Source: Jaenimonas drosophilae (taxonomy: Eukaryota; Euglenozoa; Kinetoplastea; Trypanosomatida; Trypanosomatidae). Taken from it: DNA of 21,417 nucleotides. Within the stretch, counting starts at the first letter, position 1. Each line of letters starts with the position of its first letter. The notes below the pieces were generated by a model. It did not search any database, was not told where the DNA came from, and was given only the letters and a program-made list of their open reading frames with translations. Shown here piece by piece: positions 9,403-18,592 of the stretch. A program made the translations under genes and the position numbers. The DNA lies in assembly GCA_030849065.1 (NCBI GenBank), contig JASAON010001405.1:1-21417 (forward strand), in the 5' to 3' direction.

Positions 9403-12400
9403 ATGCGCGTGAGCTCAACACCAACGAGTGGTGATGAGCCGCGCACCTGCCCGCACTGCACCTTCATCAATCCAGCGGGGCGGCAAAAGTGCTCTGTTTG
9501 CCTAAGGAAGCTGGATCTCAAGCGCCAGCGTAGCTCCTCTGCATCTACATCATCCTCGCAGAACACATCGCAAACACGGGTACTGAAGGAACCTGCCGTG
9601 TCACAAAAGGTTGAAGCAAGAGCGCAACGTGTTGAGACGTTGTTCTCCACCGCTGCTGGCAGACGGGTTGAGGTAAGTGCAGCATCACTACAAAAAGCTG
9701 AAGCACTACTTGGTACAGATCCCAGGGATGGTGTTGGTTCTAGCTCAACGGCGGAAGTAGCACGATCCAGTGGCAGTGGAGGTGTTGAGACGTTGTTCTC
9801 CACCGCTGCTGGCAGACGGGTTGAGGTAAGTGCAGCATCACTACAAAAAGCTGAAGCACTACTTGGTACAGACGCGCCAGCCCCCCTCCCAGTGGCAGTG
9901 GCACCAACCACTTCCATAGCACCACAGGAGCGCACACCTGTTGCACCGCAGCAACGTCGCGGCAAGTTTCGTCCTCCGCAGAAGACCGCCCCCTCTCCGC
10001 AGCCACCAACGTCCTCAACCACGGTCGTTGGTGGCTTAGAGCCCATCACATCCATTCGTCTCGATCTGGCGCTCCTCCAGCACACAACAACAACATCAAC
10101 GGTGCGCAGCCTACCTTCGTTGGAGGATATTGCGAGTGGCTCCTTCGCCTTCATGAGCCAAGACTGCTGCTCCTACTTGCAAACGTTGTTGGGTGTAGAT
10201 GTTGGCAGCCATGAACGCCTCCGCACGCATCATTGGCGTCGCTTACTTCTTCAGCTGGGTGCTGCCGAACGTCAATGCACTGATGCGTGGTGCCAACAGA
10301 TGCTCCGCTCATCCATCATGAAGATGCAACGTTTGGCATCCCACTTCAACGACGTGCGCCATCTCTTCACTCCAGAATCTGTGGTGGTCTTGTTGAGCTA
10401 CCGGTACAATGAGGAGATGGTGCATGCTCGTCGGCCCGCACTCCGGCAAATCGCGGAAGGAGATGCTCCATCATCCAGCCTCTTTGTGGTCTATGTTGTG
10501 GCAGTGTGCTCGGAGCACATCAACGGCCACTGCAGCATCCTTCAAGTCTGCGATGGCTTCTACACACTTCGCGTCGCACTCGATCTTCCGCTGACGCATC
10601 TCGTGCGGCAGAAAAAGTTGTGCTCAGGGCGGAAGATCGCCATCTGCGGTGCCAAGCTGCTGCTTCACACCGCGCAGGACCCACTGGAGTGTGAAGAGGA
10701 GGTGGTGCTCTCCATCAACTACAACTGTGTGCGGCCTGTAGCGGAGCACACCACGTTGGGGCTCTGCCGCCAAGAGCCGCCGCCACTTCCGCTCGCAGAC
10801 GTACATCCTGCCGGTGGCCTCATTCCTGCACTGGCGGGTATCGTGGAGCGTGTGTTGCCACCATTTTTTCAACTGCAGCCGTCCGCACCACGTGCGCCAC
10901 GTCTGACGCTCAACGCACGAGCGATGGAGTTGTTGGTCTCAAACGCATCATCATCAGCAAACTCTGCCACGAAGGATGATGCTGATGGCCGGTGTTCGCG
11001 CATTCTCTCCTTTGTGTTGGTGTGCGAGAATGGTGGCCGCGCGTTGTTGCAGTTGTGGCAATCCACAACGATGGAGGCGATGATGCATGAGGAGGCGGAG
11101 ATGAGTGAGGCCAACAACATTCCCGACGTAGGCAAGTCGGTGGCGGTTTTTGCTATTAATCCATCCAAGAGTATCAACGCCGCAGATCCGTTTCGTGATG
11201 CGAAGCTCTTCTACTGCTCGCGTCGCATTCACTTTCGGTACAGCAACACTCGCCATACTTCATCATCATCATCATCATCATCCATTCACATCTATGACTC
11301 CCTCACCTCGTCGCAGGTGGCACGCGGTTCGGTCGCTGATTTTATCGCTCTCTACGTCGCAGCACACAACACATCTCATGGCATCTATGTGTTGTGTTGG
11401 TGTGCGGATGGAAGCTACATTCTTCTTCAGGTTCCCCTTCCCAACGAACAGAAGCGCATCATCCTCTCCCTCCCAACACGTGGCGGTGTGGCGGTGTTGG
11501 TGCGTCATGCCATCATGGTGGATGCGGAAGATGCCGCAGCTGGAGCAGATTGCGCAAGGACCTTCGCCTGCGAGACGACGCACATAACTCAACGTGCCCC
11601 GGCGGAGCTCCGCGCACAGATGGCTGCGTTAGAGAGCGCCGCGGCAGAGGGCTACGATGCCAACGCATCGCATCATCGCGCTAGACGTGACGCCATCTTT
11701 GATTGCCTCAGTCGTGGTGGTGGCGGTGAGGCGTACACCCACACGGCAAGCACAAGTGCGCCAGATGCATCTGCCTCATCCAGTGTGGCAGGCGATGAAG
11801 GCTCCAAACTACCATACTACCTACGTGCATCTTCTGCACCCAATCGCACCACTCCGATTGCCGCAAACACCCCAGCAGCAACAACAACAACATCTTCATC
11901 ATCATCAGCAACGGCGACTGCTGCGCGTGGAGTGTGCCTCCCACCTCCCATCATCACCGCATCAACGCCTACACGCGTCATGCCAGGGATGAAGGGTGCC
12001 ACCCTCTCCCACTTCTACGGCAACATCATCCGCCTGTGTGTGTGTTGGCCCAACGGCCGCACCGTGGAGCGAAGATTCATTGTGGATGCCACAACTCAAC
12101 GTCCAAGCGCGCTTTGCGATGGTCTCCCCGACCGCGGCAACATCTCCGGCATCTTTATGGAGCTGACGTGGAGGTTCGGCAGCCAAGGTGATGAAGAACG
12201 CACCGCACGACTACACCAACCACATGTACTCCACCGTCTTATTGACCCGCTCATTCGTGTGGAGGCGTGGGCGGCACTCCTCAGCGGTGATGCGCAGGAG
12301 CTGGATTGTGCGCTGCAGCGTAGCTCAATGTTGGCCGCCTACCGCAATCCAACAACAACATCAACGCCAGCGGTGGAGAAGGAGAGTCTGTGGTGGCGTG

Positions 12401-12624
12401 TGCTGCACGCCGGTCACCGCCTCGTCGTCGGCGGAGATGCATCAATGGATGAAGATGCTCGGCACATGTTGTGGCTGGCAACGGAGTGGGAGGCGGCGTT
12501 GGAGCTGCTGCGTCGAGCGCTCTCCACCGCCTTCTTCAAGTTTTCTGTGGAGGACGATGTGGTGGAGATGGTGTACCTCATCTCAGATCACTGTGACGTG
12601 CGCGATCTCTTCCGGCGTACATAA
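9403..12624 (+). CDS. BRCA2: BRCA2-like homologous recombination protein with zinc finger and two BRC repeats
   Basis: BRCA2 loads RAD51 onto single-stranded DNA at breaks and stalled forks. In this 1073-aa protein, residues 16-33 form a C-x2-C-x10-C-x2-C RanBP2-type zinc finger. Two BRC repeats follow (about 78-105 and 129-156), each with L-F-S-T-A-A-G-R-R-V-E-V-S, matching the RAD51-binding F-x-T-A-S-G-K core, and the second motif L-Q-K-A-E-A-L-L. Residues ~245-345 resemble the helical DNA-binding domain; Y-R-Y-N-E-E (333-338) and D-G-F-Y-T-L-R with G-R-K-I-A-I-C-G-A (384-417) mark OB1. Further OB folds are likely toward the C-terminus, interrupted by Ser/Thr/Ala-rich low-complexity inserts (about 615-630 and 780-850). 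It is much shorter than human BRCA2, as is usual in protists. Start: first ATG after the acceptor. Confidence 0.92.
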   Translation: MRVSSTPTSGDEPRTCPHCTFINPAGRQKCSVCLRKLDLKRQRSSSASTSSSQNTSQTRVLKEPAVSQKVEARAQRVETLFSTAAGRRVEVSAASLQKAEALLGTDPRDGVGSSSTAEVARSSGSGGVETLFSTAAGRRVEVSAASLQKAEALLGTDAPAPLPVAVAPTTSIAPQERTPVAPQQRRGKFRPPQKTAPSPQPPTSSTTVVGGLEPITSIRLDLALLQHTTTTSTVRSLPSLEDIASGSFAFMSQDCCSYLQTLLGVDVGSHERLRTHHWRRLLLQLGAAERQCTDAWCQQMLRSSIMKMQRLASHFNDVRHLFTPESVVVLLSYRYNEEMVHARRPALRQIAEGDAPSSSLFVVYVVAVCSEHINGHCSILQVCDGFYTLRVALDLPLTHLVRQKKLCSGRKIAICGAKLLLHTAQDPLECEEEVVLSINYNCVRPVAEHTTLGLCRQEPPPLPLADVHPAGGLIPALAGIVERVLPPFFQLQPSAPRAPRLTLNARAMELLVSNASSSANSATKDDADGRCSRILSFVLVCENGGRALLQLWQSTTMEAMMHEEAEMSEANNIPDVGKSVAVFAINPSKSINAADPFRDAKLFYCSRRIHFRYSNTRHTSSSSSSSSIHIYDSLTSSQVARGSVADFIALYVAAHNTSHGIYVLCWCADGSYILLQVPLPNEQKRIILSLPTRGGVAVLVRHAIMVDAEDAAAGADCARTFACETTHITQRAPAELRAQMAALESAAAEGYDANASHHRARRDAIFDCLSRGGGGEAYTHTASTSAPDASASSSVAGDEGSKLPYYLRASSAPNRTTPIAANTPAATTTTSSSSSATATAARGVCLPPPIITASTPTRVMPGMKGATLSHFYGNIIRLCVCWPNGRTVERRFIVDATTQRPSALCDGLPDRGNISGIFMELTWRFGSQGDEERTARLHQPHVLHRLIDPLIRVEAWAALLSGDAQELDCALQRSSMLAAYRNPTTTSTPAVEKESLWWRVLHAGHRLVVGGDASMDEDARHMLWLATEWEAALELLRRALSTAFFKFSVEDDVVEMVYLISDHCDVRDLFRRT
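9629..9719 (+). repeat. BRC repeat copy 1 (DNA-level direct repeat)
   Basis: A 91-nt block identical at nucleotide level to 9782-9872, period 153 nt (51 codons). It encodes the RAD51-binding BRC motif. Confidence 0.95.
9782..9872 (+). repeat. BRC repeat copy 2 (DNA-level direct repeat)
   Basis: Identical by eye to 9629-9719. The intervening 62 nt (9720-9781) encode a Ser/Gly/Ala-rich spacer. Confidence 0.95.
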
Positions 12625-13068: not shown

Positions 13069-13572
13069 ATGTCTGAGCCACTCGTGCAGCTGCTGGAGCT
13101 GGAGTTGTGTGGCCCTAACCCCAACACTTTTGGCAGCCCGCTCACCTGGCGTATTCGTCTTGCCGCACACGACGACCTCCCAGACCCCATCTCTGTTTCA
13201 TTCTTGTGGGTTGGAAGTGCCGCCTCGAGCGCTTTTGATCAGGTGTTGGACGACTTCGATGTCGGGCCCCTCGCACGTGGCACGACGGAGTGTTGTTTGG
13301 AGTGTGATGGGCCACAGATGTCGTTGGTGCCGCCCTCGGACCTCCTCGGGGTGACTATCCTCGTCATTTCGTTCCAGTATCATCAACAAGAATTCTTGCG
13401 TGTGGGGTACTACACGCAGGTGGCGTGTTTGGAGGAGGAGATGCAGCAGCACGTGGAGGGGGGCCTTCACTGGCAGACGACGGAGGAGATGATGGCCTAT
13501 GACGGAAAAATTGGCCGTTTTATAGCAATGCCGCAGCCCGCGGTGACGGTAACTCCGATTCAGTGGAGATGA
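13069..13572 (+). CDS. ASF1: Histone chaperone ASF1
   Basis: A 167-aa nuclear chaperone that binds the H3-H4 dimer and passes it to deposition factors in replication and transcription. Family signatures in order: N17-P-N-x-F-x-S-P24 in the first strands, F-L-W-V-G-S-A (45-51) followed by F-D-Q-V-L-D (56-61), V-G-P (65-67), D91-L-L-G-V-T (91-96) and Q-E-F-L-R-V-G-Y-Y (107-115). These span the whole immunoglobulin-like core (~155 residues). The acidic C-terminal tail of yeast Asf1 is absent. The ATG at 13069 sits at the end of an (ATC)n run and gives the typical M-x-x-x-V-x-L start, so upstream GTG codons in frame are not used. Assignment firm. Confidence 0.95.
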   Translation: MSEPLVQLLELELCGPNPNTFGSPLTWRIRLAAHDDLPDPISVSFLWVGSAASSAFDQVLDDFDVGPLARGTTECCLECDGPQMSLVPPSDLLGVTILVISFQYHQQEFLRVGYYTQVACLEEEMQQHVEGGLHWQTTEEMMAYDGKIGRFIAMPQPAVTVTPIQWR

Positions 13573-14068
13573 AGATGAAGATCATCATCATCCGACATGA
13601 ATGACAATCATCGTGGAGGAAGCGATGGGTGTGTAGGTCTCTGCCTACACACACGCACGCACACGCGCTATCTGCCAGCCTCCTCTTCTTGCTCTCGTAG
13701 GACTCATGCATCATGGAGTAGGACTGCGGTGGCGGATGATGATGGCTGGGATGAGCGCACGCATAGAGTTGTGAGGAAGATCTCGTAGCTTAAAGGATCT
13801 CCATATGGGCGATCGCATCATGTTTCGTGATAGACGCATGAGCTACATCACCCTCTTTGTTGTTGGGTATCATGATGAGCACACAACACACGAATGAGGA
13901 AGATGAAAGATGCAGCACCATGCCGGCATTGATGCGTTTGGGGTGTGCCCAACGGCACAGATACAATAATGATGCGAATGAAGAACAAGATGATGATGTT
14001 GATGATGCATGTGTGGTGGCCATAACACGTCATCATCACCTACTTTCTTGTTGCACCTACCATAATAC

Positions 14069-14137
14069 ATCTCTTTTACTATCTCCATCTATCACCTTGC
14101 GTGTTCAGGCACAACCACTTCCTGTTTCTATTTGTAG
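14069..14137 (+). promoter_or_regulatory. Putative ancestral trans-splice acceptor of the 17741 gene, now cut off by the retroelement
   Basis: CTCTTTTACTATCTCC and CTTCCTGTTTCTATTTGTAG resemble the acceptor regions of the other genes here. Without the inserted element, the AG at 14136-14137 would lie about 68 nt before the ATG now at 17741. This role is inferred from position and composition. Confidence 0.45.
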
Positions 14138-14138
14138 C

Positions 14139-14140
<2 letters not shown>

Positions 14141-14174
<34 letters not shown>
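14141..14174. repeat. (AC)17 microsatellite at the retroelement's left flank
   Basis: Thirty-four bases of perfect AC repeat. The right flank of the element (CATACACGCACACAG, from 17715) is also CA-rich, suggesting integration into this tract. Confidence 0.9.
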
Positions 14175-14176
<2 letters not shown>

Positions 14177-14178
14177 CA

Positions 14179-14258
14179 GCCTAGCAACAGTTGAGCGTTG
14201 CTGTGGCTACTGCACTTTATTGCTTCTCACTTCCATTCAGGACAACGAAAACGATCGC
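14179..14258 (+). repeat. Split direct repeat A1 (left terminus)
   Basis: 80 nt beginning GCCTAGCAACAGTTGAGC and ending ACGAAAACGATCGC. It matches A2 (17417-17496) without gaps, about 7 mismatches by eye. Confidence 0.9.
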
Positions 14259-14335
14259 TAGCAGGCCCGCTCGCTAAGTGAGTGTTTTCATCTTCACACC
14301 ATTCAAGTGTGCCAACAGCAGAGAAGACGTCAACG

Positions 14336-16234
14336 ATGGGGGAGCCCGAGCCTACGCAGCTCGCCAGGTATATGAAGACCTTGAGCGCCCAACACGCGGC
14401 AGGGAATATCACGGAAGCCCAACGGATCAAACTGGCCGAGAAGGCTGTTGCGACCGCGCTCCTCAACCCTGACCTGGTTGCTACCAGGTCAGAGAGCGGC
14501 ACCGACAGACTGGCCAACCTGATCGAGGAAACCCGATACCCGTGGAAGGCCAGGAAAAACATTGTGCTGACAGCATTTGCTGCAGGAGAAGCCCAAGGAA
14601 CCCATACCGAGCGCATGATGCATCTACGAAAGAGGTTCGAGTTGGGGGCCAAGAGGGGCGAGGTCTCCCCGATGGAGGCAGTCATTGGTTACCACATCCT
14701 GTTTAACCCAAACGTGGAGGATGCTCTTGATACACTTGCACGACTCCTTTTCGATACCGAACGCAGGGACCGTATCGAGACGCACAACTGGATGGTGCAT
14801 GACAAGATGATTGGAACCCAACGGGAGACCTTTGGGAACCTCATCCAGTCGCTGCCCTACCCTCTTTTTCCCCCACACGAACTGCCTGAGCTCAATGCGG
14901 ACGTGTTTGCGGCGTTGGACCACACACTACACGGCGGGGAGCCTATCAACGTCTCGAAGCGACGACGGAGGGAATTCTCGGACATCTACTTACTTGACGG
15001 GAATGCGGCCACGCCACCGCCAACGCTGGGGAATGAGAGGAACCTCACACATGTTGTGAAATATATGGCGACGCAACAGCTGGACACGCTACAACGTGGA
15101 ATGCAGATAGTGACGCGGGCTTTGGAGCGACTAACCCGGATGAGCCAGCCACAGCAAGCGGCGGCGCAGAAACCACGCCAACAACCCCAGCAGCAGCCAA
15201 GGGCAACTACCCAGGGAGGCTGGACGGGCGGTGAGGGCCCACGCGACGGGCCCGCCTCGGCAAAAGCAGGGCTTTATATCCCCACGGAGGCGGCCGACTG
15301 CACAAACATGTGCATGCGTAAGCCGGTCCTCTCCGACCTCAAACCTGAAAACGAAGATGGCTTGACCGCACCCCAGCTCAAGGCGGCGCGTCTCGACTTA
15401 GTGGCGGAGAAACGACTAGCCGTGGAAGCACAGGGAAAGCGATGTATGGCCAAGGAGCCGGATCTGTTGGTTGAGGAGGCAGAGAAGGCCCTCGCAACCC
15501 CTCTTGGCGCGCCTGTAAACGTCTTGGACGGGGTGCGAGAGCAGGACCTGCCCGAGAAACTGGACTCTCTCCGAAGTGAGTCCTCCCCTTCACGTGAGTC
15601 GCATGACCTGGCCGGGAATCACCGAGGAAAGCAGACGACTCCACCGCCAGTGGATCCACGACTTGATTACGATGCCCACATACCTGCTGACGTACAAACT
15701 CGTCAGTGCGGTGATCGAGCTGATCAGGGCCATGGCGTTTCACCGTCGGTGGAAGTGATCGACGATCAACGAGAACTGCGGATTGGTAGCAGATGGCCTA
15801 CGGGACCTCCCGCTGTACTCCACCGAAATGGAGGGCATCAACCTCTACAAGGAACCAGAGTGGCAGGCGACCATGCTCATGGTGGAGCGCATGGCACGAG
15901 AGGAATCCCAGACACAGGCACCACCGACCACACTGGAGCAGTACGAGGATGCGAGGAAGGTACTGAAGACACGATCCGCGGAAGCCGACCTACTCCTATG
16001 CATTATGTGGGCGTTTGCGGCACGGACGAGCGACATCGCCACGTTGCAGAAGCGAGATGTGGAGATGGAAATCATGGAGCCGAGCGAGACGGTGTTGGTG
16101 TCGCTGTCCCTCTGTCGAGGGAAGGGAGCGGAATACCGAGGAACGTACAAAACGCCGAAAATGATCCTTTCCAGAGCGGATGGATTAGGGGGCTCGGGTC
16201 ATACGCGACTCTCGACGCTGCAACAATTCCTTAG
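14336..16234 (+). CDS. Retroelement ORF1, Gag-like protein
   Basis: Open from the ATG at 14336 to TAG at 16234 (632 codons), but only the first ~400 codons look like a real protein. That part is helical and charged (region R-M-M-H-L-R-K-R-F-E-L-G at ~103-114), has a basic K-R-R-R-R-E-F near 205, a Gln/Pro-rich linker at ~270-300 and a helical tail. There is no CCHC knuckle. The position at the 5' end, before the recombinase, is where VIPER/Ngaro elements keep their nucleocapsid-like ORF. Beyond ~15520 the same frame is out of phase with the recombinase, and its composition (Gly/Arg/His-rich) suggests it is an open shadow rather than protein; natural ORF1 probably ends or shifts frame near 15520-15600. 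An in-frame GTG at 14282 is not preferred. An 8-bp perfect hairpin lies at 14469-14490. Confidence 0.65.
   Translation: MGEPEPTQLARYMKTLSAQHAAGNITEAQRIKLAEKAVATALLNPDLVATRSESGTDRLANLIEETRYPWKARKNIVLTAFAAGEAQGTHTERMMHLRKRFELGAKRGEVSPMEAVIGYHILFNPNVEDALDTLARLLFDTERRDRIETHNWMVHDKMIGTQRETFGNLIQSLPYPLFPPHELPELNADVFAALDHTLHGGEPINVSKRRRREFSDIYLLDGNAATPPPTLGNERNLTHVVKYMATQQLDTLQRGMQIVTRALERLTRMSQPQQAAAQKPRQQPQQQPRATTQGGWTGGEGPRDGPASAKAGLYIPTEAADCTNMCMRKPVLSDLKPENEDGLTAPQLKAARLDLVAEKRLAVEAQGKRCMAKEPDLLVEEAEKALATPLGAPVNVLDGVREQDLPEKLDSLRSESSPSRESHDLAGNHRGKQTTPPPVDPRLDYDAHIPADVQTRQCGDRADQGHGVSPSVEVIDDQRELRIGSRWPTGPPAVLHRNGGHQPLQGTRVAGDHAHGGAHGTRGIPDTGTTDHTGAVRGCEEGTEDTIRGSRPTPMHYVGVCGTDERHRHVAEARCGDGNHGAERDGVGVAVPLSREGSGIPRNVQNAENDPFQSGWIRGLGSYATLDAATIP
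14469..14490 (+). repeat. 8-bp perfect inverted repeat inside ORF1
   Basis: TGACCTGG - TTGCTA - CCAGGTCA, 8-bp arms and a 6-nt loop. Confidence 0.75.
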
Positions 16235-16247
16235 TCCTGGCCCCTGA
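15519..16247 (+). pseudogene. Retroelement tyrosine recombinase, nonsense-interrupted and truncated
   Basis: The frame opens at 15519, +1 relative to ORF1. After an N-terminal helical part (Y-L-L-T-Y-K-L-V-S-A-V-I-E-L-I) it meets a TGA at 15756-15758 and continues in the same frame to TGA at 16245-16247. The second part contains the recombinase box I: A-D-L-L-L-C-I-M-W-A-F-A-A-R-T-S-D-I, with catalytic Arg codon 16023-16025 followed by A-T-L-Q-K-R-D-V. The putative beta-strand lysine is in R-G-T-Y-K-T-P-K (Lys codon 16149-16151). The HxxR box and catalytic Tyr are not present in frame, so the C-terminal half of the catalytic domain is missing or scrambled. In intact elements this enzyme integrates the circular cDNA by strand exchange. 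It is inactive here unless the stop is read through and a helper acts in trans. Confidence 0.75.
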
Positions 16248-17388
16248 CTTTACGCGGATGATGAACGCCTTTCCTTGGCAGAAGAGCACAATACATTCCT
16301 GGACGAGGAATACAAGTGGTTAGGCACGGAGCGCGTAGTGCGCAACTCCACCAAAACGGTGGCAACCCACTGACCCTGGGACTCCAGGTAGTCGAGCACA
16401 CCTGCGCTCATTCGCCTCGCTGATCTCTCTTTTAATGTTTGCCCTGCACACGACGTACACCGACCCCGCTCGTACTTTCCACCCTTTTGGCGGTCTACAG
16501 CGGAATCGGGGCTCGCGTGGTGCGAGAGGACTTGGACGCACCCCTCGGAGACATCATCCAACCAGCTCTGGTCGGACTAGCCGAGGTTGGCTGATTCTGG
16601 CTGATCGGACACCATCCTACGAGGACGACGAAAATGATGCCATCGCATATACGGACGCGTCTGGCGTGGGATGGGGAGCAATCGTCATTTTCCCCCAAGT
16701 AGGCCGCACAACTCACCTTCCAACAGCGGTGGGTGCAAAAATTGAGCGAGGTCCGCACACGTTGCAACCTGGCAACAGAGGGCTCTCTCGAGGGGTACTG
16801 CAGAGCAAAGCACTCAGCCCATGCCGAGCCACGAGCGGCCCAACATCCCTTGGAACAACTTTCTTTGGTATCTGACCACGAAGCCATCGTACAGGGGCCA
16901 GAGAAGCTTAACGGTTTCGAGGGCATTGGCCGTGGCCCCTACTTCAACCGGCTCTACCGGTACGCATTTTGTTTTAGCCTTTACAACAGAGAGGCTTTGA
17001 CGTCTCCTTCTTCTATGTGGATGGTAAGCTGAACCCCGAGGACAACCTGTCGCAAAACTTCGAGGAGAACAACAACGGACGAGACACCGCCGTGGAGATC
17101 CTCGAGGCACCCACACAGGCGTACCGGCACTCACAAGCACGTACTCACCACTGTGCGACCCGTAACATGCGGGACACCACCACATCGGCAAATTATCTTA
17201 TACTTTGCAGGAACCTGGTAGAATTCACATTCAGATACGATGTAGGAGGGGAAAAGGGGCAGAGGAAGTCAAGGAGCTGGCCACTATGGGGTAGGGGCTC
17301 ACAGTGCTGCCACGACAGACGGCGCGCCATGTTCTCAACTAGACATGGTCATGACTACGTTCCTCTCTTCCCCCTTTCTCGTCTATAG
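16248..17388 (+). pseudogene. Retroelement RT C-terminus and RNase H remnant, multiply frameshifted
   Basis: Recognisable pieces appear in order but in different frames. Frame of 16248: Y-A-D-D (16251-16262), tentatively the RT catalytic box, then V-V-R-N-S-T-K-T-V-A-T. Next frame: P-L-T-L-G-L-Q-V (from 16367). Then L-R-S-F-A-S-L-I-S-L-L-M-F-A-L-H (RT-RNase H connection, ~16402-16449). RNase H: A-Y-T-D-A-S-G-V-G-W-G-A (16645-16680), S-D-H-E-A-I-V (16871-16891, another frame), and F-F-Y-V-D-G-K-L-N-P-E-D-N-L-S (~17008-17052, back in frame), which matches the V-x-G-x-x-N-P-x-D-x-L-S ending of RNase H in DIRS elements. The first ~200 residues of RT (fingers and palm) do not fit in the space after the recombinase, so an internal deletion near 16200-16250 is inferred. 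Non-functional. Confidence 0.75.
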
Positions 17389-17399
17389 AATCGTGGCAA
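17295..17399 (+). repeat. Split direct repeat B1
   Basis: Begins GGGCTCACAGTGCTGCCAC and ends CGTCTATAGAATCGTGGCAA, matching both ends of B2 (17561-17714). It is about 49 nt shorter than B2 because an internal segment is absent. Confidence 0.88.
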
Positions 17400-17416
17400 T
17401 CAGCTACTGGAGATGC

Positions 17417-17496
17417 GCCTAGCAACAGTTGAGCATTACTGTGGCTACTGCACTTTATCGTCTTTCACTTCCATTCATGACAACGAAAACGATCGC
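17417..17496 (+). repeat. Split direct repeat A2
   Basis: Ungapped match to A1, separated from the end of B1 by 17 nt (TCAGCTACTGGAGATGC). In Ngaro-type elements B1 and A2 abut at the circle-junction-derived site used to regenerate the ends. Confidence 0.9.
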
Positions 17497-17560
17497 GTTT
17501 TCACCCACCCTAAGAAAAAACGGCGCAACCATCAACAAATATTTACTGAAAATGAGCCAA

Positions 17561-17714
17561 GGGCTCACAGTGCTGCCACAACAGAAGGAGCGCAATCTCG
17601 ATTAGCTCCCCAACTACGTGAGGCGCCATGTCATATTGGTGCACCTCACGGACTAGACGTGGTCATGACTACGTTCCTCTCTCCTCCTTTTTCTCGTCTA
17701 TAGAATCGTGGCAA
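17561..17714 (+). repeat. Split direct repeat B2 (right terminus)
   Basis: Same ends as B1 and ~49 nt more inside. The last ~63 nt are nearly identical to B1 and contain a pyrimidine tract and TATAG. Confidence 0.88.
17674..17703 (+). promoter_or_regulatory. Pyrimidine tract and TATAG supplied by the retroelement, possible trans-splice acceptor
   Basis: CCTCTCTCCTCCTTTTTCTC then GTCTATAG ends at 17703, inside B2, 37 nt upstream of the ATG at 17741. It is stronger than most host tracts here. ACAG (17728-17729) and GCAG (17737-17738) are alternative AGs. Use as acceptor is inferred. Confidence 0.55.
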
Positions 17715-17740
17715 CATACACGCACACAGATTTTGCAGCC

Positions 17741-18592
17741 ATGCTGGCGGGGGAGCAGTACATCAACCAGTTTCTCCGCGACCACAAGACGTGGAAGCGT
17801 GCGGCCACACAGCACTCCGTGGGCGGTGACGCAAGTGCATTGCCTGCGGATGATCTTCCGTGGGGATTGCGGCGGCGTGGCAATTCGGAAAACGCAATCA
17901 CACTTCGATTTGCACACTCACTTCGCTCCGCCTCGTTGGCCTCTCCGCCAACCTCACTGCACATGACAACACGTTGGTCCTCGTCAACGCAACCATCTCC
18001 AAGCGATGATCTTCTCCGAAAGCGTTTGCAACGCAATCTTCGTTCGCGAGGCGTGGATGCCGCCTTTGCGCAAGCAGAAGCTGCGCGTGCATCGTCCGCC
18101 CACACGGCTGGCAAACACAACAACAACAAGAGCAACAACCTCACTGCTCATGGTGTACGCGAAGCCTTTGAGCGTTGCTGCGCTGAGATCAGTTCCGCAG
18201 AAGCCGCATTCCGCAAAGATGTTGCGACGATGGAGCGACGAACTCGACGACGTGTGATGGTGGCACACCACAGCAATCTCCTCGCCGTCATCGCCGTGGA
18301 CGAATTCCACGTTCGTCGGGACATCTTTCGTGCCGCCATCACCGAACATCGTCAGATTTTGGCGATGGAGCGCGCAGCCTTTGAGGGTATGACGGGCATC
18401 AGTCATGATGGAATGAAGATGATGATTGCACTTGCGCAGCAAGAATCGTCGCGACGCAATCTGATTGTAAACCAAGAGCACAATGACGCCACCACGATTC
18501 AGAAAGTGTTGTATGTACTCAACGTGGAGGTGGTGGAGCGCCTGATTGCATCCTGCGCACGTCGTGAGGCCCGACTTCTGCGGCAGCAATGA
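17741..18592 (+). CDS. Hypothetical protein, charged/helical, 283 aa
   Basis: No family recognised. The ATG at 17741 is the first after the retroelement end; an upstream in-frame GTG (17708) lies within the element and is not used. Residues 1-130 are Ser/Ala/Arg-rich with an N/K-rich run (H-N-N-N-K-S-N-N) near 125-132. From ~133 to the end the sequence is almost wholly alpha-helical (A-H-G-V-R-E-A-F-E-R-C-C, then F-R-K-D-V-A-T-M-E-R-R-T-R-R-R) and could form a helical bundle or coiled coil ending R-R-E-A-R-L-L-R-Q-Q. The stop is the first of six consecutive in-frame TGA codons (18590-18607) made by an (ATG)n run. The YR element just upstream probably sits in its 5' UTR. Function unknown. Confidence 0.75.
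   Translation: MLAGEQYINQFLRDHKTWKRAATQHSVGGDASALPADDLPWGLRRRGNSENAITLRFAHSLRSASLASPPTSLHMTTRWSSSTQPSPSDDLLRKRLQRNLRSRGVDAAFAQAEAARASSAHTAGKHNNNKSNNLTAHGVREAFERCCAEISSAEAAFRKDVATMERRTRRRVMVAHHSNLLAVIAVDEFHVRRDIFRAAITEHRQILAMERAAFEGMTGISHDGMKMMIALAQQESSRRNLIVNQEHNDATTIQKVLYVLNVEVVERLIASCARREARLLRQQ

Follow-up and report, generated by a model that had tools for sequence, protein, structure and literature searches.

The window analysed here is a stretch of 21,417 nucleotides (nt) from the trypanosomatid Jaenimonas drosophilae, representing contig C114 of an assembly of 18.8 Mb in 370 contigs. On its plus strand, at positions 14176–17714, a mobile element of 3.5 kb was found which begins with TCAGC and ends with GGCAA and whose four repeat blocks are arranged as A1...B1-A2-B2. 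Between A1 and B1 lie an open reading frame (ORF) in the position of Gag, the remnant of a tyrosine recombinase (YR) ORF and pieces of a reverse transcriptase (RT) and RNase H (RH) region. The element very probably belongs to the TATE (telomere-associated transposable element) clade of kinetoplastid YR retroelements, as a dead copy with internal deletions.

The order of the repeats had been proposed in an initial annotation, and a direct-repeat search agreed with it. The A pair (14179–14258 and 17417–17496) shares 80 nt at 91% identity, while the B1/B2 pair shares blocks of 45 nt at 82%, 40 nt at 90% and 25 nt at 100%. The likeness of A1 to A2 is not due to chance, as the BLASTN E value is 7e-27. 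In a gapped alignment of the repeats, a script found the two A copies to agree at 89 of the 97 aligned positions and the two B copies at 99 of 110. The full repeats occupy 14176–14290 (A1), 17295–17399 (B1), 17400–17503 (A2) and 17561–17714 (B2), with the extents of A1 and A2 taken from the repeat alignment and from other copies in the genome. They had been described as intact, which proved incorrect, since three of them carry private deletions when compared with each other: 14 nt are absent from A1 close to its 5′ end and 25 nt from the interior of A2, and B1 falls short of B2 by 49 nt. Longer forms of the repeats are present in short copies elsewhere in the genome. The junction between B1 and A2 (17399|17400) reads GGCAA|TCAGC and, because of this sequence and the agreement of the copies in contigs C262, C57 and C65, the edges of the element are placed at 14176 and 17714. 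The right edge is thus the one first proposed, with the left edge moving from 14179 to the TCAGC at 14176. A search for inverted repeats (minimum length 20) in 13500–18500 returned one pair of 20 nt at 85%. DIRS-like elements possess inverted terminal repeats and an internal complementary region, whereas the termini of this element are direct repeats.

The long ORF in the Gag position and the peptide signatures AARTSDI, YTDASGVGWGA and NPEDNLS, all listed in the initial annotation, are present in the sequence. Pfam searches with the three ORFs of the element detected none of the Gag, YR and RNase H domains, even with the E value relaxed to 1, and the profile evidence comes from a TATE-type RT/RH profile described below. 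The Gag-position ORF (14336–15601, with the frame open to 16231) is assigned by its position and by four other matches in the same genome. Relatives of it occur in at least four further places, the best being in contig C244 at 39% identity. It contains no zinc-knuckle pattern and no Pfam match, and the 7994 scored candidates, namely those sharing the most words with it, included no outside homologue at E ≤ 0.001.

The YR remnant (15519–16244) was recognized from its relatives in the genome, with at least six further matches across five contigs, and by comparison with a long copy in contig C59. This copy has a Gag-position ORF, a 1453-aa ORF which ends in the YR and an overlapping RT/RH ORF. 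The window YR is interrupted by an in-frame stop at 15756, and the piece 3′ of this stop is 39% identical to C59 across 150 aa, with box I (AARTSDI) at 16017–16037. Compared with C59, approximately 65 aa of the middle part are gone between 16181 and 16194. Loss of the whole C-terminal half was considered and dropped, as a C-terminal box was detected at 16194–16241 with a raw score of 41, which was matched by none of 5000 shuffles. Active tyrosine recombinases have the catalytic residues R-H-R-Y; in the window the Arg of box I is kept, the middle is gone and F is found at the position of the C59 Tyr.

The C59 RT/RH was used to retrieve 87 public proteins, and the TATE RT/RH profile was built from 57 of these (480–670 aa, with five distant ones excluded) together with C59 itself. 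On the window, the profile matched with E < 0.001 over its positions 262–569 and weakly to 579 (E 0.14). The end of the RT region (profile 262–298) lies at 16254–16364, and an RNase H domain (profile 311–569 in part) is spread over pieces in two frames at 16405–17127, with YTDASGVGWGA at 16649–16681 and NPEDNLS at 17032–17052. The RT end and the RNase H are in pieces of different frames. Profile positions before 262 had no match inside the element, which indicates that the RT core is missing through deletion. The window copy is dead, having lost the RT core and the YR middle and having broken frames; in its present state it would be unable to move itself. The loss of the RT core had escaped the initial annotation, as had the (CA)n flank and the gene-less copies described below.

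Most of the 87 relatives of the C59 RT/RH are without organism name. Seven are named TATE (46–61% identity) and none is named VIPER, while the other named entries are hypothetical or uncharacterized proteins of Leishmania, Novymonas, Angomonas and Trypanosoma and two with bacterial labels, Providencia and Oceanobacter. In an earlier study, the Oceanobacter hits obtained there were regarded as likely contamination (PMC6681497). When stop-free pieces of the window were compared with this set (E ≤ 0.01 in that set), pieces 16248–16370 and 16339–16872 each matched 81 of the 87 proteins, followed by 16703–17029 (75), 16978–17385 (66) and 17028–17162 (16), with the Gag frame matching a single protein. 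Over three stretches, the mean identity of the window to the TATE proteins was 0.57, 0.39 and 0.43, compared with 0.58, 0.43 and 0.49 among the TATEs themselves, a likeness which covers the RT end and RNase H as the sole surviving parts. The element has in common with the TATEs of Leishmania braziliensis and Leptomonas pyrrhocoris its RT-end/RNase H sequence, the order Gag-position ORF, YR and RT/RH, and the repeat order A1...B1-A2-B2.

The initial annotation had leaned towards VIPER, for which no support was found, the RT-end and RNase H evidence indirectly favouring TATE in a comparison with the 87 relatives of the C59 RT/RH. A VIPER copy accompanied by true SIRE would indeed explain the repeat order and gene order, which the element has in common with VIPER/SIRE of Trypanosoma cruzi, and SIRE is the A2-B2 part of VIPER (PMC6681497). 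This explanation is nevertheless very unlikely, given that the RT-end and RNase H pieces are near the TATE identity range and that the C59 relatives include seven named TATE and none named VIPER. The family is more likely to be TATE than VIPER, and it is not Ngaro. In Ngaro the recombinase lies downstream of the RT/RH, whereas here the YR (15519–16244) is upstream of the RT end and RNase H (16254–17127). The split direct repeats A1...B1-A2-B2 are held in common with both Ngaro and PAT (PMC6681497). The Ngaro-like character first assigned to the element thus extends to its repeat architecture and not to its gene order, and the element was correctly described as a degenerate DIRS-group YR retroelement whose split direct repeats are of the Ngaro style.

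Several observations weigh against placement within the TATE clade. Over profile positions 382–424, the distant proteins P0086 and P0087 are 0.33 and 0.37 identical to the window, nearly the TATE level (0.39), and P0084 and P0085 are about as near to the window as the TATEs. A 79-row tree built from a single RNase H stretch does not settle the place of the window, with supports of 0.49, 0.27 and 0.77, and the distinction between TATE and VIPER was drawn indirectly, from the comparison with the 87 C59 relatives. As regards the C59 copy, the match between its Gag-position ORF and that of the window is marginal (E 0.004), tblastn in the reverse direction gives no match, and the fold model of its YR is poor (pLDDT 42.8) and unfit for structure search. 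The C59 YR also matched Phage_integrase below the cut-off (E 0.0055), and its long ORF (L024 2217–6578) had no sequence match in the PDB. Approximately 1200 aa precede the YR in this ORF, of which the first 200 aa gave a sub-threshold match to Peptidase_C48 (Ulp1) with E 0.17. A 698-aa open frame at the end of contig C311 (L028 2–2095), near a protein kinase gene, has two separate weak YR-like matches and may be a host gene derived from a recombinase.

The A and B repeats were also sought at other places in the genome and were found there. A DNA search identified six places including the window, and a search with the C262 copy gave eight rows in six contigs; the B pattern had six matches and the A pattern five, with none for the reversed controls. 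In C262, C57 and C65, A and B are present without genes in between. These A-B-only copies have the form of SIRE (A2 and B2, no genes), a likeness in form only. SIRE-like sequences have been called exclusive to T. cruzi (PMC11957388). The ends of contigs C57 (L003 1365–3336) and C65 (L004 3–1996) have 2 kb in common at 92% with the same A-B copy, and this pair, representing alleles or a duplication, was counted as one site. The copy in C326 is truncated and has no left end, and was excluded from the left-end count; beside it (L005 1784–2233) is a tandem repeat of ~165 bp with units 98–99% alike. A match in C250 was not used, being absent from the BLASTN hits of the element and having its row in unmatched orientation despite an E value of 1e-10 in the DNA search. 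The A-B-only copies and the CA target described next are what is new about this element.

The element is directly preceded by a (CA)n microsatellite at 14141–14175. All four outer left ends found (C114, C262, C57 and C65) directly follow such a tract on the sense strand. At the 3′ side, a CA run stands directly after the element in C262, and the window has the CA-rich flank CATACACGCACACAG (17715–17729), the putative second half of the target. Matches to a 20-base CA sequence number 1152 in the genome (overlapping, both strands), the first 100 of which represent 27 tracts, giving an estimate of ~310 tracts in 18.8 Mb, so that a position directly behind a CA tract on a given strand is estimated at ~1 in 10^5. 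With such positions this rare, the finding of three independent sites at CA is not attributable to chance; moreover, the internal B1|A2 junction is without CA, so CA looks like the target and not like a part of the element. It was also considered that CA tracts, being frequent as the 1152 matches show, adjoin the three sites by chance, or that CA belongs to the 5′ end of the element. Two points weigh in this direction and against CA as the target: the four left ends amount to three independent sites (the fifth A match being the internal A2), and C57/C65 have CA on their 5′ side with a 3′ flank that does not start with CA repeats. Chance is however difficult to reconcile with four of four left ends abutting a tract on the sense strand at positions of ~1 in 10^5, and CA within the element with its absence from the B1|A2 junction, and both versions are judged unlikely.

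Targeting of CA runs differs from what has been described for TATE. In L. braziliensis, TATE inserts at a precise site in the telomeric GGGTTA with duplication of TT, and internal sites have only remnants (PMC2696322, PMC6681497), while VIPER and TATE are stated to lack target duplications (PMC12278014). Insertion at GGGTTA is not seen in the window: the element there is flanked by predicted genes and sits in (CA)n, and the genome also has the short A-B-only copies. The GGGTTA site is a property of the type element and not a criterion of the clade; its absence lowers the case for a classical TATE and not that for the TATE clade. In C59, GGGTTGGGGTTAGGG precedes the left repeat and is the sole basis for a telomeric site; B repeats were not found at this copy, and its telomeric location is only suggestive. 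The tracts at the start of the window element and of its better-preserved short relatives suggest that this lineage aimed at CA runs instead of chromosome ends. No report of CA-targeted kinetoplastid YR elements was found in literature titles and the starts of abstracts, a search mostly not covering subscription journals, and in the available text the word "microsatellite" is absent from PMC6681497 and PMC12278014 and "dinucleotide" from PMC6681497. By analogy only, the large endogenous nimaviruses of crustaceans insert in simple repeats, some by means of a tyrosine recombinase (PMC10871703). They differ in being unrelated DNA viruses, in which the recombinase is associated with telomeric TAACC or 28S rDNA and (AT)n with a DDE transposase (PMC10871703).

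Behind the element lies an ORF of 283 aa from its ATG (17741–18592, plus strand), the codon usage of which is overall like that of the weaker training genes (0.105 per codon, compared with 0.10–0.27 for five training genes; five antisense ORFs did not exceed 0.057). The strongest plus-strand pyrimidine tracts in 13570–17760 are those of B1 (17360–17384, AG at 17387–17388) and B2 (17674–17699, AG at 17702–17703), with scores of 22 and 23. The AG of B2, a candidate trans-splice acceptor, is 38 nt upstream of the ATG at 17741 with no ATG in between. It is possible, with much less certainty than the identity of the element, that the downstream gene is trans-spliced at the end of B. The chances are about even that the element is instead junk in the spacer, with the ORF using a native acceptor or another start, or not being a gene, and the B tract having no host role. 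A pyrimidine-AG directly before the CA tract (AG 14136–14137) is the likely native acceptor, but its use would place ~3.6 kb of leader and 57 ATGs ahead of the ORF, against no ATG after the AG of B2, and the overall codon score of the ORF also speaks for a gene.

Other findings favour junk and count against a splicing role. Extra conservation of the pyrimidine end of B was looked for in the repeat alignment and not found, the end being conserved no better than the rest. No homologue of the downstream ORF was found among 3705 candidates. Its codon score is near zero in windows starting at 17816–17966 and higher upstream in the same frame, inside B2 (0.16–0.23), for which reason 17741 is only a candidate coding start. 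The known locations of SIRE are 3′ UTRs and poly(A) sites rather than 5′ leaders (PMC11957388). A presumed 19-nt piece of the spliced leader was not found in the genome with up to two mismatches, perhaps because the assembly lacks the spliced-leader arrays. In C262, 47 nt separate the end of the element from the first ATG of a 625-aa ORF, whose codon score is low (0.057, stop to stop) and whose match to Aldedh is below the cut-off, while behind the C57/C65 copies the stretches examined contain no same-strand ORF of at least 180 aa that begins within 5 kb and scores above 0.05. Insertion into leaders thus loosely fits two of the three sites. In A1, a weaker pyrimidine tract with AG at 14215–14240, ~96 nt before the Gag-position ATG at 14336, is a possible acceptor for the mRNA of the element itself; A2 has ATG where A1 has AG.

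Upstream of the element in the window, Pfam identified an ASF1 gene and, at 9403–12624, a BRCA2-like gene that has two stretches of BRC repeats as well as an OB domain. The paraflagellar-rod family, which is not known outside euglenozoans, had four matches in the genome and none in 14 control genomes, to which little weight is attached as those named are prokaryotes. The four matches point to a kinetoplastid or other euglenozoan host, which fits the kinetoplastid origin originally assumed from the sequence.

A possible life cycle can be proposed from these features. In the living element, the split repeats would have assisted reverse transcription into a circle with the B-A junction GGCAA-TCAGC, and the recombinase may have recombined this junction with (CA)n tracts, in a single orientation and with no visible target duplication. 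The A-B-only copies could have arisen via A1 × A2 recombination or have moved as a non-autonomous form, both of which are options discussed for SIRE and VIPER. As a far less certain step, the gene behind the element might then be trans-spliced at the end of B. A rather doubtful extension of this proposal is that a branch of the TATE clade turned from a telomeric to a (CA)n target including 5′ leaders, where an acceptor at its 3′ edge, now in use by the neighbouring gene, would renew the leader of that gene and not disrupt it, the A-B-only copies thus being portable splice acceptors.

In the papers cited, the target of the TATE clade is a telomeric site, and a relative which targets dinucleotide repeats would offer a matched pair for the comparison of recombinases and their targets. 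If the TATE clade does contain short copies of the SIRE kind, reduction to A and B would not be special to VIPER of T. cruzi. If the end of B is indeed a splice acceptor, it would represent a simple route of survival for a mobile element within polycistronic gene arrays.

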